This document shows, in pieces, positions 20,228 to 26,743 of a stretch of 64,000 nt of DNA. The first letter of the stretch is position 1. Every line of letters begins with the position of its first letter. Location: the NCBI RefSeq assembly GCF_014297575.1, contig NZ_CP060412.1, positions 434,001 to 498,000 on the forward strand, given 5' to 3'. Source of the stretch: Dyella telluris. GTDB lineage: Bacteria > Pseudomonadota > Gammaproteobacteria > Xanthomonadales > Rhodanobacteraceae. The translations under genes were made by a program, and so were the position numbers. The notes under the pieces were generated by a model. The model ran no database searches. It saw only the letters and a program-made list of their open reading frames with translations, and was not told the origin of the DNA.

Positions 20228-20836
20228 ATGAAGTTGTACTACCTGCCGGGCGCCTGCTCGCTCGCCGACCACATCGTGCTCGAATGGATTGGCCAGCCTT
20301 ACGAGGCCAATCGCGTCGCACGTGAGGAACTGGGTTCGGCCGACTACCTGCGCATCAGCCCGTCGGGCTGCGTCCCTGCCCTGCAGGAACCGGATGGCTG
20401 GGTGCTGACGGAGAACGTGGCGATCCTCAACTACCTCGCGGACAAGTATCCGCTGGCCAGCCTCGGCGGCGAAGGTGCGCGCGGTCGTGCCGAAGTGAAC
20501 CGCTGGATCGGTTTTCTCAACTCGGACCTGCATCCGCTGTTCAAGCCCGTGTTCCGTCCCGAACGTTTCATTGACGACGAGGGATCGCAGGAAAAGCTCC
20601 GCACCCGCGCCATCGCCCGCCTGCGCGCGTACTACGAGCGCCTGGATGCGCAGCTGCACGGACGCGACTGGCTCACCGGCACGCGCTCCTTCGCCGACCC
20701 GTACCTGTTCGTCGTGCTGCGCTGGGCCGTGGCCAAGGGCGTGGATCTGTCGGGCCTGGACAACCTGGCCCGCTTCCAGCAGCGCATGCTGGAAGATGCC
20801 GGCGTGAAGGCTGCCCTGCAGCAGGAAGGCCTCTGA
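20228..20836 (+). CDS. Glutathione S-transferase family protein
   Basis: The protein has 202 residues. The N-terminal thioredoxin-like domain begins MKLYYLPGACSLADHIVLEW, with the beta-class GACS motif at residues 8-11 and the glutathione-binding VPALQEPDGWVLTENVAIL at about 48-67. An all-helical C-terminal domain includes LTGTRSFADPYLFVVLRWA. These fit beta/GST-like enzymes that conjugate glutathione or act as peroxidases; the substrate is unknown. The start has GAGGAAACACCC upstream. It lies immediately after terC. Confidence 0.92.
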   Translation: MKLYYLPGACSLADHIVLEWIGQPYEANRVAREELGSADYLRISPSGCVPALQEPDGWVLTENVAILNYLADKYPLASLGGEGARGRAEVNRWIGFLNSDLHPLFKPVFRPERFIDDEGSQEKLRTRAIARLRAYYERLDAQLHGRDWLTGTRSFADPYLFVVLRWAVAKGVDLSGLDNLARFQQRMLEDAGVKAALQQEGL

Positions 20837-20871
20837 GCGCATCCGCCACATGACGGCGCGCGTGCCATGGC

Positions 20872-22323
20872 CTAGAGCATCATGGGCACACGTACTGTCA
20901 CGGTGGCATCCGGCGTGTCACGCGTCACCCCCACGCCCAACGTAAAGTTGAGCGTGCGTTTGTCGCTGAAGCGCCACGAGCCGCCGATCAGCAGCGTGCC
21001 GAGCACGGTTTTCACCGAGCCCGGCACGGTCTGCCCGTTCTGCTTGGTGACGCCCACGAAACTCTGGTCGTAGCCGATGCTGAAAGAGGCCTTTTCGTTG
21101 AGCGAGATACCCATGCCGATGCTGACATCGGCGATATCGCCCTCTTTCACTTTGCCCAGGGATTCCGTGCCGCCCAACAGGATCTTGCGCGTGAGGTTGT
21201 CGCGAGGCACGTTGTACAGGTAGCTCAGGTTGCCGAAGAACACCACCGGATCGGTCGGATAGAGCCAGGTGACGCCGGGCTGGATGGACCAGAAGCCCGT
21301 GCCGGTCGGCTGCTCCAGTGGCAATCCGGTGCCGGTGGCGGAAAGATCCACCTCGTCGATGACGTTCTCCACGCAGCGATGGACGCAGTCGGTGGTGACC
21401 TCGAACGGATCGGTGCCGGTGCGTGACTTCACGCGCAGCCAGCCCACGTAGTACGCCTTGTCCGGCCCGCCGACATTGAGCTGATAACGCAGGGTCGCCT
21501 CGACGTCGCCCAATCCATGGCCACTGGAACCAAAGGCATTGTCCGTGGCGCTGCCGGTGAAGATCTCGCGGCTGATGGTGTCCTGGTGTGCATACACATA
21601 CGGCACGCGCACTTCCACTTCCATGCGGTTGGTAATGCCATAACGCGCGGTCAGCCAGCCGATCTGGGTGGTGTCCTTCACCTGCCGCGCATCGATCAGG
21701 CCGATCAGGATGGCCGGAATCACGGTGTAGCCCACCAGGGCCACGCGATCCAGCGAGGAATAGCCGAACTGGTAGGCCGGCTCGATGATCACCTTGCCCT
21801 TGGGCGTCAGCACACCGGGCTGCTGGAAGATCGGTGCCACCTCCGGTGGCCGCGTATCCTGCTTGGGCGCCTGCCCCACGGCCTGCTGCCCTTGCGCCTG
21901 GTCGGTGGATGGCGCGTTGGCTGCCACCGCGTCCCCCGCCGGCATGGGCAGTGCCGATGCGCCGGGTCCACCGGCGGCAATGCTGCCGGCGCGCTGCTTG
22001 TCGAGCACGTCCATGCCCACGGCATGACGCAAGGCCTGGTAATCCGCTTCCTGCTGAGCCAGCGCGCGTTTCATGGCGTCCAGCTGTTCCATCTGGGCGC
22101 TGATCTGGCTGCGCATCGCGTCGATGCGCTCGCCTTGCTCCGACACCTTTTTCTGCAGGTCTGAAGCCGGTGCATCAGCGGTCGGTGCATTCGCTGCCGT
22201 TGCTGTCGAAGGAGCGGCAGCCGCCGCCGGTGTGCCGGGTTCCTGTGCGGAAACAGGCGCGCCAAGCATCGCCAGTCCAGCACATCCCGACGTCAGGAAA
22301 TACCGCCACGTTGTCTGTCGCAT
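20872..22323 (-). CDS. FapF-like coiled-coil/beta-barrel outer membrane protein
   Basis: This 483-residue exported protein is the last gene of the five-gene leftward operon. A signal peptide (to about 26, PVSA/QEPG) is followed by an Ala/Pro/Thr-rich spacer and a coiled coil at about 55-102 (LQKKVSEQGERIDAMRSQIS and on). A linker then leads to KQDTRPPEVAPIFQQPGVL at 155-172, after which come beta strands rich in alternating residues to the C-terminus (TVTVRVPMML). FapF of Pseudomonas, the pore that exports functional amyloid, has the same layout of coiled coil, linker and barrel. The assignment rests on layout, the QPGVLTPKG block and the adjacent C39 protease gene. A generic barrel transporter is the alternative. 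Confidence 0.72.
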   Translation of the reverse strand: MRQTTWRYFLTSGCAGLAMLGAPVSAQEPGTPAAAAAPSTATAANAPTADAPASDLQKKVSEQGERIDAMRSQISAQMEQLDAMKRALAQQEADYQALRHAVGMDVLDKQRAGSIAAGGPGASALPMPAGDAVAANAPSTDQAQGQQAVGQAPKQDTRPPEVAPIFQQPGVLTPKGKVIIEPAYQFGYSSLDRVALVGYTVIPAILIGLIDARQVKDTTQIGWLTARYGITNRMEVEVRVPYVYAHQDTISREIFTGSATDNAFGSSGHGLGDVEATLRYQLNVGGPDKAYYVGWLRVKSRTGTDPFEVTTDCVHRCVENVIDEVDLSATGTGLPLEQPTGTGFWSIQPGVTWLYPTDPVVFFGNLSYLYNVPRDNLTRKILLGGTESLGKVKEGDIADVSIGMGISLNEKASFSIGYDQSFVGVTKQNGQTVPGSVKTVLGTLLIGGSWRFSDKRTLNFTLGVGVTRDTPDATVTVRVPMML

Positions 22324-22363
22324 CGTGCTTCCCCCGAGGCTTCCGTGTTGTTGATGTCACACA

Positions 22364-22401
22364 GACGAACGCGTCGCGATGCTTCTCGCGGCGCGTTCGT
22401 C
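22364..22401 (-). other. Intercistronic hairpin upstream of the barrel gene
   Basis: Two arms of about 16 bp, GACGAACGCG-n-CGCGA and its complement, enclose a loop of about 6 nt, with one non-pairing position. It lies between the double-glycine protein gene and the barrel gene and has no U-tract. It could protect or attenuate the upstream mRNA. Confidence 0.55.
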
Positions 22402-22435
22402 GTCCAGGAAAAACCGTGGCGGTGCCCGTTCCATC

Positions 22436-22960
22436 TCAGTGCACCAAGGACTGAAGCTGTGCCTGTTGCAACGCGTCCTGGAAGTTCGCCGATCGGAAAG
22501 CGTTCAGCGAATTGACCGACGTGTTGAGCGTGGTGACGCTCTGGATGTTCTGATTGTTCAGCGTGTTCTGGATCACCGCCCCGGCGCTGGTCTGGCCCAG
22601 CGACGAGGGATCGAACGTATTGTTGGGGCCGATCTGCGTGATCGACATGGCATTGAGCGCGCTGGACATGGCCGACGCCTGTGTCGTCGTCATGCGCGCG
22701 ATGTCGGGCACGTTGAAGCTGGTCTGGGTGACGAGGTTGCCGTTGACGTACACGGCGCGATTGATGCCAAACGAGGCCATCAGGCCATTGCCCACATCGA
22801 ACCCGCCGCGGGTTTCGTCCAGGGTCTGCTCGCTCACCGGCACCCAACCGGAACCATCGGCCGGCGTCGTCGGGCTGTCGTCCGCCAGCGCACTGGCCCA
22901 ACCCGCCGCGCCGACGAAAATCGTCGTTCCCAGGAAAATGACACGAAGCGTCGAATTCAT
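22436..22960 (-). CDS. Exported protein with double-glycine motif (FapE-like position)
   Basis: The 174-residue product begins MNSTLRVIFLGTTIF; this ATG is preferred over one two codons earlier because GAGG lies 8 nt upstream. A signal peptide ends near ASALA/DDSP (25). The segment SEQTLDETRGGFDVGNG (43-59) resembles a C39-peptidase double-glycine site, with GG at 52-53. The C-terminal half is rich in Asn, Gln, Ser and Thr and contains AVIQNTLNNQNIQSVTTLN, similar to the C-terminus of the 141-aa protein of this operon (VIQNSGSNVLIQNATV). No known enzyme motif is visible. I infer an exported fibre-associated component. Confidence 0.65.
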   Translation of the reverse strand: MNSTLRVIFLGTTIFVGAAGWASALADDSPTTPADGSGWVPVSEQTLDETRGGFDVGNGLMASFGINRAVYVNGNLVTQTSFNVPDIARMTTTQASAMSSALNAMSITQIGPNNTFDPSSLGQTSAGAVIQNTLNNQNIQSVTTLNTSVNSLNAFRSANFQDALQQAQLQSLVH

Positions 22961-22970
22961 CGGCATAACC

Positions 22971-23651
22971 TCAAAGGTCGTCCGGCCCTTTCTTGGGCAT
23001 CACGGTGAAGAAAAGGCTGTTGCGGTCCACCGCGGTATCGATGGGCGCCGGTGGCGCCACCTTCCAGTCGCTGGCACTGTTGAACACCGCCAGGTTCCGA
23101 CGGTTGTGGATGACGAACACCAGCCCGCTCTTCCACATGGCCATGAAGTGGCTCTGCGAGATCACGCGCGTGCCGCGTGCCGGATCGCCCACCAGCACGC
23201 GTTCATTGCGGATACCCTTGATGACCACGAAGTGGTGATAGCCCTTCTCGTCGATCAGCACGATCGCCGGCAGTCTTTCCTGCACGAGCTTGTCCAGTGG
23301 CACCTTGAAACCATCGGCCTCGAAACCGTTGGCATCCAGGAAGCGCTTGATGTCGAGCAGCGAGAACCCTTCCTTGTTGATCTTGGCGCGATCGCCATGG
23401 GTATACATCTGCTCGAAGGCCACCTGCTCGTTCATCGGGTAGCCGTACTGATAGGTCAGCAGGGTTGCGACAGCCGCGGAGCCGCAGCTGAAGTCGTACT
23501 TCTGATGGATGGTGGTCTTGTAACGGGCCTCTTTGATGCTCGTCAGGTGAATGGCGTAGTTGCCGTTGCCACTCACCACGGAAATATCGGAGGCCGGGCT
23601 CCCCGTCGGCAGCGCCACCAGAACCATCAGCAGCGCTGCAAGCATTTTCAC
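22971..23651 (-). CDS. Periplasmic C39-family cysteine peptidase (FapD-like)
   Basis: The 226-residue product has a signal peptide of about 20 residues (LMVLVALPTGSPA). Its C39 peptidase domain carries QKYDFSCGSAAVATLLTYQYG (Q50, catalytic C56), YHHFVVIKGI (H140) and VGDPARG (D156), so the full Cys-His-Asp triad is present. It has no ABC or membrane domain, unlike bacteriocin exporters; stand-alone periplasmic C39 proteases of this kind are found in Fap amyloid operons as FapD. The start overlaps the stop of the upstream 141-aa gene (ATGA), implying translational coupling. A likely substrate is the double-glycine motif of the neighbouring 174-aa protein. That link is inferred. Confidence 0.85.
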   Translation of the reverse strand: MKMLAALLMVLVALPTGSPASDISVVSGNGNYAIHLTSIKEARYKTTIHQKYDFSCGSAAVATLLTYQYGYPMNEQVAFEQMYTHGDRAKINKEGFSLLDIKRFLDANGFEADGFKVPLDKLVQERLPAIVLIDEKGYHHFVVIKGIRNERVLVGDPARGTRVISQSHFMAMWKSGLVFVIHNRRNLAVFNSASDWKVAPPAPIDTAVDRNSLFFTVMPKKGPDDL

Positions 23652-24073
23652 GGTTTGAACTCGACGCTGATCACGGTGGCGTTCTGGATCAGCACGTTGC
23701 TGCCCGAGTTCTGTATCACCATCGGTATGCCCGCTTCGCCGCTGAAGGCACCGCCCGTGATGACATTGGCACCTGAAATGACATGGTCCGCGGTGTCGTT
23801 GGACACCGTGCCGGTCAGCGTAGTGTTCTGCACGACCAGGGTGCCGCCACTCAGGCCGTCCAGGGTGGCGTTGTCCACGCCGGTCCCCAGGTCCGCGGCA
23901 GCCGCCCCCTCATTCTTGGTGACATCGACGGCGGCCGCGTAGACGGCAACCGGAGACTGCGCGCCATCCAGCAGATAGGCGGCAGGTATCTGCGCGTTTT
24001 CCGCGCAGAGCAAAGTAGGTACGACCATGGCGCAGAGCGCGATGACGCCAGGCAATGCATGGAGAATCCGCAC
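23648..24073 (-). CDS. Small exported protein sharing motifs with the Gly-rich subunit
   Basis: The product is 141 residues from a GTG start (MRILHALPGVIALCAMV), chosen because AGGAGT lies about 8 nt upstream and a signal peptide (to about 24, TLLCA/ENAQ) follows directly. Upstream ATG or GTG codons lack such a site. The mature protein carries NTTLTGTVSN (83-92) and IQNSGSNVLIQNATVISV (120-137). Both recur in the Gly-rich protein as NSTLTGSVSN and QNSGAAALIQQSVNV. The two therefore look like a minor/major subunit pair, as FapB/FapC or CsgB/CsgA are. No such protein is known to me by name. Confidence 0.65.
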   Translation of the reverse strand: MRILHALPGVIALCAMVVPTLLCAENAQIPAAYLLDGAQSPVAVYAAAVDVTKNEGAAAADLGTGVDNATLDGLSGGTLVVQNTTLTGTVSNDTADHVISGANVITGGAFSGEAGIPMVIQNSGSNVLIQNATVISVEFKP

Positions 24074-24160
24074 GGCACTCACTCCTGAAGGCTTGAGCAC
24101 GTCCATCGACCGCGCGTTTCGCGCGCTCGCTCTGAGCAACCCTTTGCAGTTGCAGCCGGG

Positions 24161-24189
24161 CATGGGGGAGCCGGAACGGCTCCACCATG
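24161..24189 (-). other. Intercistronic hairpin after the Gly-rich subunit gene
   Basis: CATGG-n-GGAGCC pairs with GGCTCC-n-CCATG around a 5-nt loop within the 132-bp gap behind the Gly-rich gene. A stable stem without a U-tract in this place is typical of fibre operons in which the first, major-subunit cistron is kept at a higher mRNA level. Confidence 0.5.
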
Positions 24190-24205
24190 CCGGATGCGTA
24201 CTCAC

Positions 24206-25150
24206 TTAATGTGCGAAGTTCAGGTTGGCCTGGACATTCACGCTCTGCTGGATCAACGCCGCTGCGCCACTGTTCTGCGCAAGGATCGAGACACCAGCCG
24301 CTGCGGCTGCCGAACCGTTCATCTGGTTCGACATGTCGAAGGCACCCGTCGTGGCATAAGCCGTGCCGCCTGCGCCGCCGTTGCCGCCCGCGCCACCGGA
24401 GCCTGCGCCACCGGTACCACCCATGCCTGAGCCGCCCGCACCGCCTGCACCGGCCGTTGCGTCAGCCGCACCACTGGTGCCACCCGTGGAGGTCGACGAA
24501 CCGCTATAGCTGCTCGGCGACGATGCACCCGACGAACCTGCGCCACCGGCACCGCCGGCACCACCGGCTCCGCCTGCACCACCGGCCCCTGCCGTCGCCG
24601 TACCACCGCCGGCGTAACCGCCGCCGCCGCTGGTGCGCGAATGACTGTGGCTGTTTGCACTGGAGTTGCCGCCGTCGTTGCCGCCGCCGCCATCACCGCC
24701 GCTGCCGCCACCGGCCAGCGATGCGCCAAGGGCGCCGGAATCACCCGACGAACTGCCTGAACCGCCGGCATGACCGCTACGTGCATGGGCGTCGCCGCCC
24801 GATCCGCCGTCGCCGCCGTTGCCGCCGATGGCCTTGCCACCGTAGCCGTCGCCACCGCTACCGCCGCGGCCGCCACTGGCATTGCCATTGTTGGTGGATG
24901 AGTTGCCAATACCCCAAACGGCAACGTTCGACACCGAGCCGGTAAGCGTGCTGTTGGCTACGGCTTCATTGGTATTGAAGGAGTCAGCATTACCACCGCT
25001 ACTCGCTGCGGAGCCGTACTGACCGGTCGCATACGTGCTGTAGGTGTTATTGGAATCACTGCTTCCATGGTTGTGGTCATTATCCGCAAATGCCGGCAAT
25101 GCCAAGCCCATGCCGAGCACAATTGCGGTCGCAATTAGAGTCTTACGCAT
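24206..25150 (-). CDS. Gly-rich exported protein, candidate major fibre/adhesin subunit
   Basis: This 314-residue protein is the first gene of the five-gene operon. The signal peptide is MRKTLIATAIVLGMGLALPAFA, with AGGAG 8 nt before the ATG at 25150; the ATG six bases upstream is too close to that site. The mature part starts DNDHNHGSSDSNNTYSTY. NSTLTGSVSN is at 66-75, a Gly/Ser/Asn/Ala-rich stretch runs from about 91 to 275 (GGSGG, GGAGGAGG tracts), and the C-terminus is SILAQNSGAAALIQQSVNVQ. The end motifs are shared with the 141-aa protein. The composition suits an extended secreted fibre or matrix protein. The Gly-rich tract also creates long Arg/Pro-rich open frames on the other strand, which are not genes. 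Confidence 0.72.
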   Translation of the reverse strand: MRKTLIATAIVLGMGLALPAFADNDHNHGSSDSNNTYSTYATGQYGSAASSGGNADSFNTNEAVANSTLTGSVSNVAVWGIGNSSTNNGNASGGRGGSGGDGYGGKAIGGNGGDGGSGGDAHARSGHAGGSGSSSGDSGALGASLAGGGSGGDGGGGNDGGNSSANSHSHSRTSGGGGYAGGGTATAGAGGAGGAGGAGGAGGAGSSGASSPSSYSGSSTSTGGTSGAADATAGAGGAGGSGMGGTGGAGSGGAGGNGGAGGTAYATTGAFDMSNQMNGSAAAAAGVSILAQNSGAAALIQQSVNVQANLNFAH

Positions 25151-25550
25151 AGTCATTACTCCTGGAACGATGCGGTGACCCCCTGTGTAGCTGGTGTTGC
25201 GAGTCCAGCAAGGCTTATTCGCAACATGCGTGCCAGCCAACGCTGCGTCTCCTTGGGCAGCGCGACTGGCATGAGATAAGCGATTACAGGGGGCCTGCGG
25301 CACGTGATCCAGAAGGTCCGCCAAGCATGCAACGGACAAAGTGACACAGCACCGTTACACCCTTTTCGGCATGTGGGTAGCGCGAGCACCCGGATGCATC
25401 AGAACAAGATGCTCAACTTCAATGATTTGCGGTGCATTGGTGATCTCGATTTTTGCAATGTAAGCCACGTATCAAAGCTGTTACACCGATGCATACGAAA
25501 CCATAGCAATCTCGTACAGACACATGAACCACAACGAAATCTGCAAAAAA
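25151..25550 (-). other. Long AT-richer leader/regulatory region of the fibre operon
   Basis: About 400 bp upstream of the Gly-rich gene hold no convincing gene. The region is lower in GC than its neighbours, which suggests extensive regulation or a long leader, but I cannot pick out a reliable -35/-10 pair. No known riboswitch signature is visible. Confidence 0.4.
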
Positions 25551-25576
25551 AAGAGGGAGCCTTTCGGCTCCCTCTT
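25551..25576 (-). terminator. Rho-independent terminator of prpC
   Basis: An 11-bp stem AAGAGGGAGCC with a 4-nt loop is followed on the minus strand by a run of T (CTCTTTTTTTTGC). It lies 22 bp after the prpC stop and separates the prp genes from the fibre operon. Confidence 0.92.
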
Positions 25577-25597
25577 CGCAAACGCTGGCAACAGCGA

Positions 25598-26743
25598 TCA
25601 ACGCTTCTCGATCGGCACGTAGGCCTGGTCTTCCGGTCCGGTGTAGTTCGCGCTGGGACGGATGATCTTGCCGTCCTCGCGCTGTTCGATCACGTGCGCG
25701 CTCCAGCCGGAGGTGCGGGCGATGACGAACAGTGGCGTGAACATGGCCGTCGGCACGCCCATCATGTGATACGCGCTGGCCGAGAACCAGTCGAGGTTCG
25801 GGAACATCTTCTTCTGCTCCCACATCAGCTTCTCGATCTTCTCCGACACGTCGAACAGCGTGGGGTTGCCACCTTCGGTGCAGAGCTTGCGCGAGACTTC
25901 CTTGATGATCTCGTTGCGCGGATCGGACACGGTATACACCGGGTGGCCAAAGCCGATGATGATTTCCTTGCGCTCGACGCGGGCGCGGATATCTGCTTCC
26001 GCCTCGGCCGCGTTGCGATAGCGCGCGATGATCTCCATCGCCACTTCGTTGGCGCCGCCGTGCTTGGGACCACGCAGCGCGCCGATGGCACCGGTGATCG
26101 CCGAGTACATGTCCGAGCCGGTACCGGCGATGACGCGCGCGGTGAAGGTGGACGCGTTGAACTCGTGCTCGGCGTAAAGGATCAGCGACTTGTCCAGCGA
26201 GTGCGCGTGCAGCTCGCTCGGCTTCTTGCCATGCAGCAGGTGCAGGAAGTGACCGGCGATGGATTCGTCATCCGTCTCCGTTTCGATGCGCTTGCCGTTG
26301 TGGCTGTAGTGGAACCAGTACAGCAGCATCGAACCGAAGCTGGCCATCAGGCGATCGGCGATGTCATGCGCGCCGGTTTCGTTGTGATCGTCCTTCTCCG
26401 GCAGCACGGTGCCCAGCACCGAACAACCCGTACGCATCACGTCCATCGGATGGGTGGCGGCCGGCAGCAGCTCCAGCGCGCTCTTCACCGGGGCCGGCAG
26501 GCCACGCAGGCGCTTGAGCTTGGCGCGGTACGCGTTCAGTTCCGCCCAGTTCGGCAGCACGCCGTGCACCAGCAGGTACGCCACTTCCTCAAAGCAACCC
26601 TTGGCCGCCAGGTCATGGATGTCATAGCCGCGGTAATGCAGGTCATTGCCGCTGCGGCCCACCGTGCACAGCGCGGTGTTGCCGGCGGCAACGCCCGACA
26701 GTGCGACGGATTTCTTGGGCTTGGGAAGGGTTTGCTCGGTCAT
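25598..26743 (-). CDS. prpC: 2-methylcitrate synthase
   Basis: PrpC condenses propionyl-CoA with oxaloacetate to 2-methylcitrate. The protein has 381 residues. Citrate-synthase catalytic blocks are [21 protein letters not shown] and the C-terminal [20 protein letters not shown]. The [10 protein letters not shown] segment near the N-terminus and [11 protein letters not shown] are typical of the short methylcitrate-synthase branch. The context (prpB 69 bp upstream, prpE further up) supports PrpC over GltA. The start [17 protein letters not shown] has AGGAGACGTATCCG upstream. A strong terminator follows. Confidence 0.96.

Follow-up and report, generated by a model that had tools for sequence, protein, structure and literature searches.

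The closest described relative of the locus reported here is the fapABCDEF operon of Pseudomonas, which encodes fibre subunits, the C39-type peptidase FapD, FapE and the pore FapF. FapD and FapF are members of larger families (PMC3792158), and colocalised fapD and fapF homologues have been recorded in five additional phyla (PMC6173800). According to the accessible part of PMC3792158, fapA is missing from 6 of the 16 genera with true fap. The Cys of FapD is required for secretion, as reported by Rouse and others, N-terminal peptides of FapE were missing by mass spectrometry, and the substrate of FapD is left open in the parts of these reports available to us (PMC5557850; PMC6173800). In this study, a window of 64,000 nucleotides from the soil bacterium Dyella telluris (the whole stretch analysed; NZ_CP060412.1, positions 434,001 to 498,000) was investigated, with a focus on a leftward operon of five genes, G1 to G5, at positions 20872-25150 of the window. 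The operon would be a sister system of Fap in which Sec export, cleavage by G3, export through G5 and stacking of G1 on G2 bring a Gly-rich body to the cell surface, and we give this reading a probability of about 0.7. Double-glycine (GG) leaders on G2 and G4, a module common to G1 and G2, the Gly-rich body, a sigma54-like site and the sister clade are new. No system with a Gly-rich subunit, a single common module, a double leader and a clade of its own was described among the matches listed in the open-licence PMC literature, where the loci may stand in the supplements of PMC6173800 and PMC3792158.

The five genes lie consecutively on the minus strand, as the initial annotation of the window had it, and are spaced from G1 to G5 by a gap of 132 nucleotides, an overlap of 4, a gap of 4 and a gap of 112. 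A Sec-type signal sequence was recognised by eye at the N-terminus of all five products.

24206..25150, minus strand: G1, Gly-rich large subunit predicted to be exported, 314 residues; a second in-frame ATG lies at 25156
23648..24073, minus strand: G2, small subunit predicted to be exported, remotely FapB/C-like, 141 residues from a GTG start, 64 of them beyond the GG
22971..23651, minus strand: G3, putatively Sec-exported C39 peptidase, FapD homologue, 226 residues from a GTG start
22436..22966, minus strand: G4, FapE-like protein with a double-glycine leader, 176 residues
20872..22323, minus strand: G5, FapF homologue, 483 residues

Like Pseudomonas fapABCDEF, the window carries in one operon a FapD-type C39 peptidase, a FapF-type coiled coil and barrel, and remote homologues of FapE and FapB/C. 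It differs from fap in having no FapA, no canonical Fap repeats and a separate FapD clade, in a large subunit that is Gly-rich, bears one C-terminal module and stands first, and in a GG leader on two subunits where fap has RGR/RGK on FapE alone. The fap-like gene order that had been proposed is borne out for the FapD, FapE and FapF homologues and departs from fap in the large subunit standing first and the small one beside the protease. The GG motif in G2, the C-terminal module common to G1 and G2 and the sigma54-like site go beyond what the initial annotation had listed.

G3 matched Pfam PF03412 at 1e-21 and the NCBIfam FapD model at 1.1e-39 with 136 bits (below its equivalog cut-off of 330), and a profile-profile comparison with FapD gave 3.8e-53. 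By comparison, G3 is a FapD-type C39 peptidase. Cys56, His140, Asp156 and Gln50 were invariant in all 35 aligned relatives, in agreement with an earlier description of G3 as a periplasmic C39 protease with an intact Cys-His-Asp triad.

23484..23486, minus strand: codon of the catalytic Cys56 of G3, invariant in 35/35
23232..23234, minus strand: codon of the catalytic His140 of G3, invariant in 35/35
23184..23186, minus strand: codon of the catalytic Asp156 of G3, invariant in 35/35

G5 matched the solved FapF with an E-value of 8.6e-23, and FapF was its top PDB match both by sequence and by fold. Profile-profile comparison with FapF gave 5.2e-54 over 420 columns, and the NCBIfam FapF model gave 146 bits, below the cut-off of 700. 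On these comparisons G5 is a FapF-type barrel with a coiled coil, the parts of which are predicted as follows.

22021..22164, minus strand: periplasmic coiled-coil helix of G5, residues 54-101, helical in the AlphaFold model with a predicted local distance difference test (pLDDT) of 71-96 by ten-residue block
20890..21792, minus strand: beta-barrel of G5, residues 178-478, from the AlphaFold model and comparison with FapF

Many public records of Dyella, Rhodanobacter, Frateuria and Fulvimonas call the FapF homologue 'acetate kinase', apparently an annotation error that has spread.

A total of 200 genomes of the order were surveyed, and a match to the FapD model at 1e-15 or better was found in 36 of them. 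The scores separated into two sets. In one, 16 loci scored 240-262 bits and lay in canonical fap surroundings; in the other, 21 loci scored 94-157 bits, 20 being of the window type (the window counted in), with L054 as the exception. All 19 window-type relatives in the order had matches to all five proteins in the same order, among which L041 offered only an 88-residue piece of G1 near a contig end and L053 carried G1 and G2 on one open reading frame (ORF). This 514-residue ORF upstream of the C39 gene may be a natural fusion or an assembly effect. Genome G001 was the sole genome of this survey with both window-type and canonical loci. Mutual exclusion with canonical fap was considered and is not claimed, as 20 window-type and 16 canonical genomes had 1 in common among the 200 and 1.6 would be expected, which is near independence.

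When named genomes were scanned with a FapD-like profile, at least 585 stretches proved to encode a relative; 80 were kept, from Dyella, Rhodanobacter, Luteibacter, Lysobacter, Pseudoxanthomonas, Luteimonas, Cupriavidus, Paraburkholderia, Burkholderia, Ralstonia, Variovorax, Massilia, Duganella and other genera; relatives also occur in Burkholderiales. Sufficient flank (2.6 kb upstream and 3 kb downstream) was available for 62 of the 80; 60 of these had the small subunit, all 62 the FapE-like gene, 61 the large subunit and 41 a FapF-like gene downstream on the same strand. All five genes stood in order in 39 of the 62, and in 26 of 26 flanked loci from Xanthomonadales as grouped by genome name. 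The gene order is kept in Xanthomonadales in both samples (19/19 and 26/26), beyond what chance would give, the outcome of a survey that the initial annotation had proposed, and the C39 gene is conserved beside the subunits, the loss of which had been named as grounds against its reading. An opposite-strand FapF homologue was recorded near the operon at 17 loci outside Xanthomonadales, including L199, L210, L211, L221 and L225. The sets of G4-, G2- and G1-type proteins used below comprise 102, 99 and 91 members, which hold some genomes twice (96, 94 and 86 when unique), and profiles from other loci served to recognise the three protein types in the named loci, so that the module and leader counts are partly by construction. 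The G4 of L152 (ORF call overran), the G2 of L053 (fused) and the G1 of L041, L053 and L150 were left out. Canonical protein sets came from 33 of 35 canonical loci (without L176 and L177).

The equivalog cut-offs of the FapD and FapF models are a weak test here, since the 16 canonical loci of the order also fell below the FapD value of 330 and the NCBIfam cut-offs were passed by only 8 of 398 genomes in a survey of the phylum. A tree of 104 FapD-like proteins was reconstructed with a midpoint root. The 35 canonical rows formed one group (support 100/99), the 31 window-type and 20 intermediate rows formed a second (100/99), and these two groups were united with the 18 outgroup rows outside (99/84). 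By this comparison the window-type loci belong to a sister clade of canonical fap. In the fetched stretches, an iterated FapA profile found no match in 24 window-type, 20 intermediate, 18 outgroup and 80 named loci, as against 26 of 35 canonical ones, and for these stretches the earlier remark that no FapA-like gene was visible is confirmed.

G1, G2 and G4 matched no Pfam or NCBIfam family above cut-off and no PHROG family. Iterated profile searches were run on all ORFs of 97 loci together with their reversed copies, with E-values calculated for 11,888 sequences, half of them reversed decoys. They returned no decoy, no opposite-strand and no outgroup-locus match, a result to be read with the HMMER filters in mind, which hide weaker decoys; earlier decoy-free iterated searches drifted and were not used for homology. 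The N-terminal part of G4 found 34 canonical, 24 window-type and 20 intermediate ORFs, all at the FapE position, as well as one further canonical-locus ORF and one upstream ORF of an intermediate locus. The C-terminal half of G2 found mainly ORFs at the FapB/C position (70), and also 23 at the FapE position. The C-terminus of G1 met canonical genes later and more weakly (35 upstream, 16 at the FapE position). Iterated profiles identify G4 as a remote homologue of FapE and G2 as one of FapB/C, and the single-step profile-profile value of G4 against FapE was weak (4e-4). The profile comparison with FapB to FapF that had been suggested thus came out strongly for G3 with FapD and G5 with FapF, and for G4 with FapE and G2 with FapB/C through iteration only, the single steps being weak. 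Taken with the FapD (3.8e-53) and FapF (5.2e-54) comparisons, these links give good support to the earlier proposal of a related Fap export system.

A leader of the double-glycine kind was found in two of the subunits. In G4 the leader, VSEQTLDETRGG, follows the signal sequence, and its counterpart in G2 is VDNATLDGLSGG.

23843..23848, minus strand: double-glycine codons of G2, leader VDNATLDGLSGG; LxxxxGG in 96/99 G2-type proteins (91/94 unique)
22802..22807, minus strand: double-glycine codons of G4, leader VSEQTLDETRGG; LxxxRGG in 102/102 G4-type proteins (96/96 unique)

The frame of both leaders matches that of the classical C39 leader. LxxxRGG or LxxxSGG was found in only 3 of 91 G1-type large subunits. 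The FapE-like proteins of intermediate loci had RGG in 20 of 20, with Glu at -8 in 13. In canonical FapE the frame persists as RGR/RGK in 32 of 33 proteins, the exception being L168, and in these 32 the residues were Glu at -8 in 29, Leu at -7 in 28, Met at -4 in 20, Arg at -3 in 31, Gly at -2 in 32 and Arg/Lys at -1 in 32. The positions of the G2 and G4 leaders that are kept in canonical FapE are Leu/Ile -12, Asp -10, Glu -8, Leu -7, Met -4, Arg -3 and Gly -2, with -1 changed to Arg/Lys. The frame was found in none of 32 canonical FapB. As an argument from sequence, the leaders of the sister system point to FapE as a FapD substrate and to the exact cut site, and a cut at RGR/RGK of FapE is a concrete single-site prediction for existing Fap assays.

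A module profile built from the C-termini of G1 and G2 found one copy in all 91 G1-type and all 99 G2-type proteins, the G1-type ones having been recognised partly by the C-terminal end that carries the module, and none in 102 G4-type proteins or in reversed proteins.

24209..24346, minus strand: C-terminal module of G1, one copy, by the module profile; remote connection to the Fap repeat by way of G2 and sister loci
23651..23785, minus strand: C-terminal module of G2, by the module profile, found in 99/99 window-type G2

With a profile built on other loci, the module was present in 66 of 66 unique named large subunits, a count partly by construction because G1 profiles had served to recognise these proteins. 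In 17 of the 20 intermediate loci the large subunit could be chosen by hand; 13 of the 17 contained the module, with L124 and the full set of eight Asn/Ser-rich subunits among them. Four evenly spaced tandem copies are present in the large subunit of both L120 and L121, and FapC likewise has several repeats. The module of the intermediate loci, aligned from the 8 copies of L120 and L121 and 11 others with the 4 subunits without a match left out, gave P 1.5e-5 against the canonical Fap repeat in an in-register comparison of 39 columns, where the reversed control gave 0.29. The pooled module gave 3.7e-4 and the G2 module alone 8.6e-4, with reversed controls of 0.1-0.3. By this chain of comparisons, none of them direct for G1, a remote relationship between the module and the Fap repeat is probable. 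The Fap-repeat pattern itself was found in none of 61 named and 21 other large subunits and in none of 24 G2, as against 29 of 32 canonical FapC.

The description of G1 as Gly-rich is in line with its composition, 44% Gly over the core.

24347..24874, minus strand: Gly-rich core of G1, residues 93-268, 44% Gly, with Gly every third residue

The lag-3 z of G1 over residues 76 to 252 is 4.3 (canonical median 1.7), and z exceeded 3 in 63 of 89 large subunits. The Gly content was 17-34% (median 27%) in the large subunits from 61 named loci and 9-16% (median 12%) in 32 canonical FapC. The length of the large subunit varied widely across loci. Among the intermediate loci, L124, L127, L153 and L155 have Gly-rich large subunits, L123, L126, L128-L131, L147 and L148 have Asn/Ser-rich ones, and the remaining ones are mixed. 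Since the body varies in this way with the module present in 13 of 17, it seems exchangeable ahead of a conserved module, and not every Gly-rich relative has the module. In L128-L131, L147 and L148, repeats of the Asn-Ser-Asp type (19-28% Asn) were seen ahead of the C-terminal module.

From the homologies and motifs established by comparison, we infer the following course of cleavage, export and assembly. All five proteins would cross the inner membrane by Sec. G3 would cleave the leaders of G2 and G4 after GG, and would do so in the periplasm, because G3 is a separate protein with a Sec-type signal. The cut would free a G2 of 64 residues beginning at T78, little more than one amyloid-type module, and a G4 of 121 residues beginning at F56. 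Removal of the leader may license or start export via a G5 trimer, which would open and export G2, G4 and unfolded G1. Outside the cell, the C-terminal module of G1 would stack on the G2 module, and the long Gly-rich body of G1 would either polymerise on the cell surface or be presented from it, giving a matrix or an adhesive fibre that the body forms or coats. The product may be a Gly-rich fibre and may be an amyloid. If the fibre model is true, exporters of functional amyloid can also transport low-complexity materials of quite another kind, a point of relevance to biofilm biology and to engineered protein materials.

Several results weigh against this reading. A clean GG leader is present in only 4 of the 20 G2-type proteins of intermediate loci, the others showing RGx, SGR, RAK or none, and the module had no match in 4 of 17 intermediate large subunits (L119, L127, L153 and L155), three of them Gly-rich; our confidence in the outline was lowered slightly because of these leaders and these three subunits. 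The G1 module alone compared with the Fap repeat at 0.11 (reversed control 0.095), and G1 gave nothing against FapB/C in single-step profile-profile comparison, so that no direct FapC link was found. The single-step value of G2 against FapB (2.3e-3) was hardly better than that against FapE (4.7e-3), and full-length G4 at a stricter threshold reached one canonical FapE-position gene only and drifted to G2-type genes. The FapF gene lies on the other strand in 17 of the 62 flanked named loci, and none was found in the stretch in 4. For G5, the earlier expectation of a FapF-like coiled coil, barrel and plug held for the predicted coiled coil and barrel; an alignment pairs the plug segment of G5 from residue 160 with residue 92 onwards of FapF, and no helix is predicted in this segment. 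The AlphaFold model of G1 had no confident structure (mean pLDDT 43.8, predicted template modelling score 0.17); being uninformative, it supports neither cross-beta nor polyglycine-II folding.

Three other explanations were weighed. The operon might be a diverged member of canonical Fap that makes an ordinary Asn/Gln-rich FapC-type amyloid, for its FapD, FapE and FapF homologues stand in the fap order and the missing fapA is matched in the 6 of 16 true fap genera given in the accessible part of PMC3792158. This is very improbable, as the FapD tree places the window in a sister clade, apart from all 35 canonical rows (100/99), the Fap-repeat pattern is present in 29 of 32 canonical FapC and in none of 61 large subunits, the Gly median is 0.27 against 0.12, and genome G001 carries both kinds. 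With Fap repeats, FapA and a place in the canonical clade all lacking, canonical membership was rejected. It is just as hard to believe that the C39 peptidase frees the 64- and 121-residue products as signals or antimicrobials that leave by the FapF-like barrel, G1 being a carrier or a coat on the surface. There is no ABC (ATP-binding cassette) transporter among the five genes, the mature G2 and G4 keep remote homology to FapB/C and FapE, and G2 has a module in common with G1; these stand against the bacteriocin-type leaders of G2 and G4 and the matches of the G3 profile to peptidase domains of bacteriocin-type transporters in the PDB. Export by a C39-ABC bacteriocin system was likewise rejected, with no ABC transporter fused or adjoining among the five operon genes. 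Such transporters (PCAT type, ComA) resemble the window in the C39 domain and the double-glycine leader and differ from it in that G3 is a separate 226-residue protein with a Sec-type signal in an operon without an ABC transporter.

A product that is exported in a Fap-like way and stays unpolymerised, with G1 as a polyglycine-II-like glue or hydrogel on the surface, where its C-terminal module would hold it, is unlikely. The Gly at every third residue (lag-3 z above 3 in 63 of 89) resembles the glycine-rich triplets of PGRS/PE_PGRS proteins, for which polyglycine-II sandwiches have been proposed in the available part of PMC9436101, and the wide variation in length of the large subunit would also suit a glue. 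AlphaFold predicted no such fold, however, and the neighbouring G2 with the same module suggests nucleation and stacking. The mycobacterial PE_PGRS proteins share with G1 the GGx-type composition and period; they use another secretion route, and a Pfam scan of 32 G1-type proteins found neither PE nor any other family. Within the sister-system reading, a more specific proposal is possible though doubtful, namely a Fap-derived surface display whose amyloid part is one C-terminal module and whose body is an exchangeable, non-amyloid low-complexity polymer (Gly-rich and polyglycine-II-like here, Asn/Ser-rich in sister loci). In it, a periplasmic double-glycine peptidase would cut the Sec-exported leaders of both small subunits, and the same leader, decayed to RGR/RGK, would be the FapD site on FapE.

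The Fil 'putative pilus' system (FilB C39 peptidase, FilC barrel; NCBIfam names) also has a C39 peptidase beside a FapF-like barrel. The window proteins scored 122 bits against FilB (cut-off 475) and 35 bits against FilC (cut-off 630), both below their FapD and FapF scores, whereas the three outgroup proteins tested all gave 219-291 bits against FilB, above their FapD scores. The 18 outgroup loci lie outside the group of window and canonical loci in the tree, and near them no FapE or FapB homologue and no ORF with an [ED][LMI]xxhxG[GA] leader was found. Membership in Fil was rejected on the missed FilB and FilC cut-offs, the closer approach to FapD and FapF and the tree placement. L133, L158, L178 and other outgroup loci make up a third class of C39 peptidase with a FapF-like barrel, Fil-like in 3 of 3 tested; the class was also seen in G610, a genome with canonical fap, and G693 has a similar pair of scores.

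A perfect sigma54-like site was found ahead of the operon.

25221..25235, minus strand: sigma54-like -24/-12 promoter site, perfect TGGCAC-N5-TTGC, 85 nucleotides before the G1 start

The perfect motif is unique in the window and occurs 26 times in the 4.99 Mb single-contig genome, as against 8 for the backward control. Among loci where the start could be placed, and with 10 positions scored, sites matching at 9 or more positions stood at -76 to -133 before G1 in 38 of 56 named loci (shuffles 0.4) and in 18 of 22 other loci (shuffles 0.1). As a further likeness to fap, a sigma54-like site lies near the fapA start in 13 of the 26 canonical loci with a FapA match (shuffles 0.3). Expression of the operon probably needs sigma54. 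The available parts of PMC3792158, PMC5557850, PMC5135000, PMC9436101, PMC4751259, PMC6173800, PMC3684753 and PMC5552954 contain no statement on RpoN control of fap. A sigma70 scan of 20700-25700 returned no promoter-like site, and terminator-like sites in the same interval numbered 3 against a shuffle mean of 3.7, i.e. no excess.

Two duplications were noted among the relatives. L147 contains the cassette of small subunit, C39 peptidase and FapE-like gene twice, equal in length and about 2.9 kb apart, and in L163 (G637:C78) two FapD genes of the canonical type are separated by about 4.9 kb, in what appears to be a tandem fap locus. The operon of the window is flanked by a citrate-synthase-like gene at 25598-26743, followed by a terminator-like stem at 25577-25550, and by a glutathione-transferase-like gene on the opposite strand, both named by reading their translations. 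Propionate (2-methylcitrate)-type genes, recognised in the same way, adjoin the operon. A homologue of 25598-26743 with 89-99% identity was present within the fetched stretch of 31 of 103 window-type loci, and these 31 come solely from same-family genomes or from Dyella, Luteibacter and Rhodanobacter.

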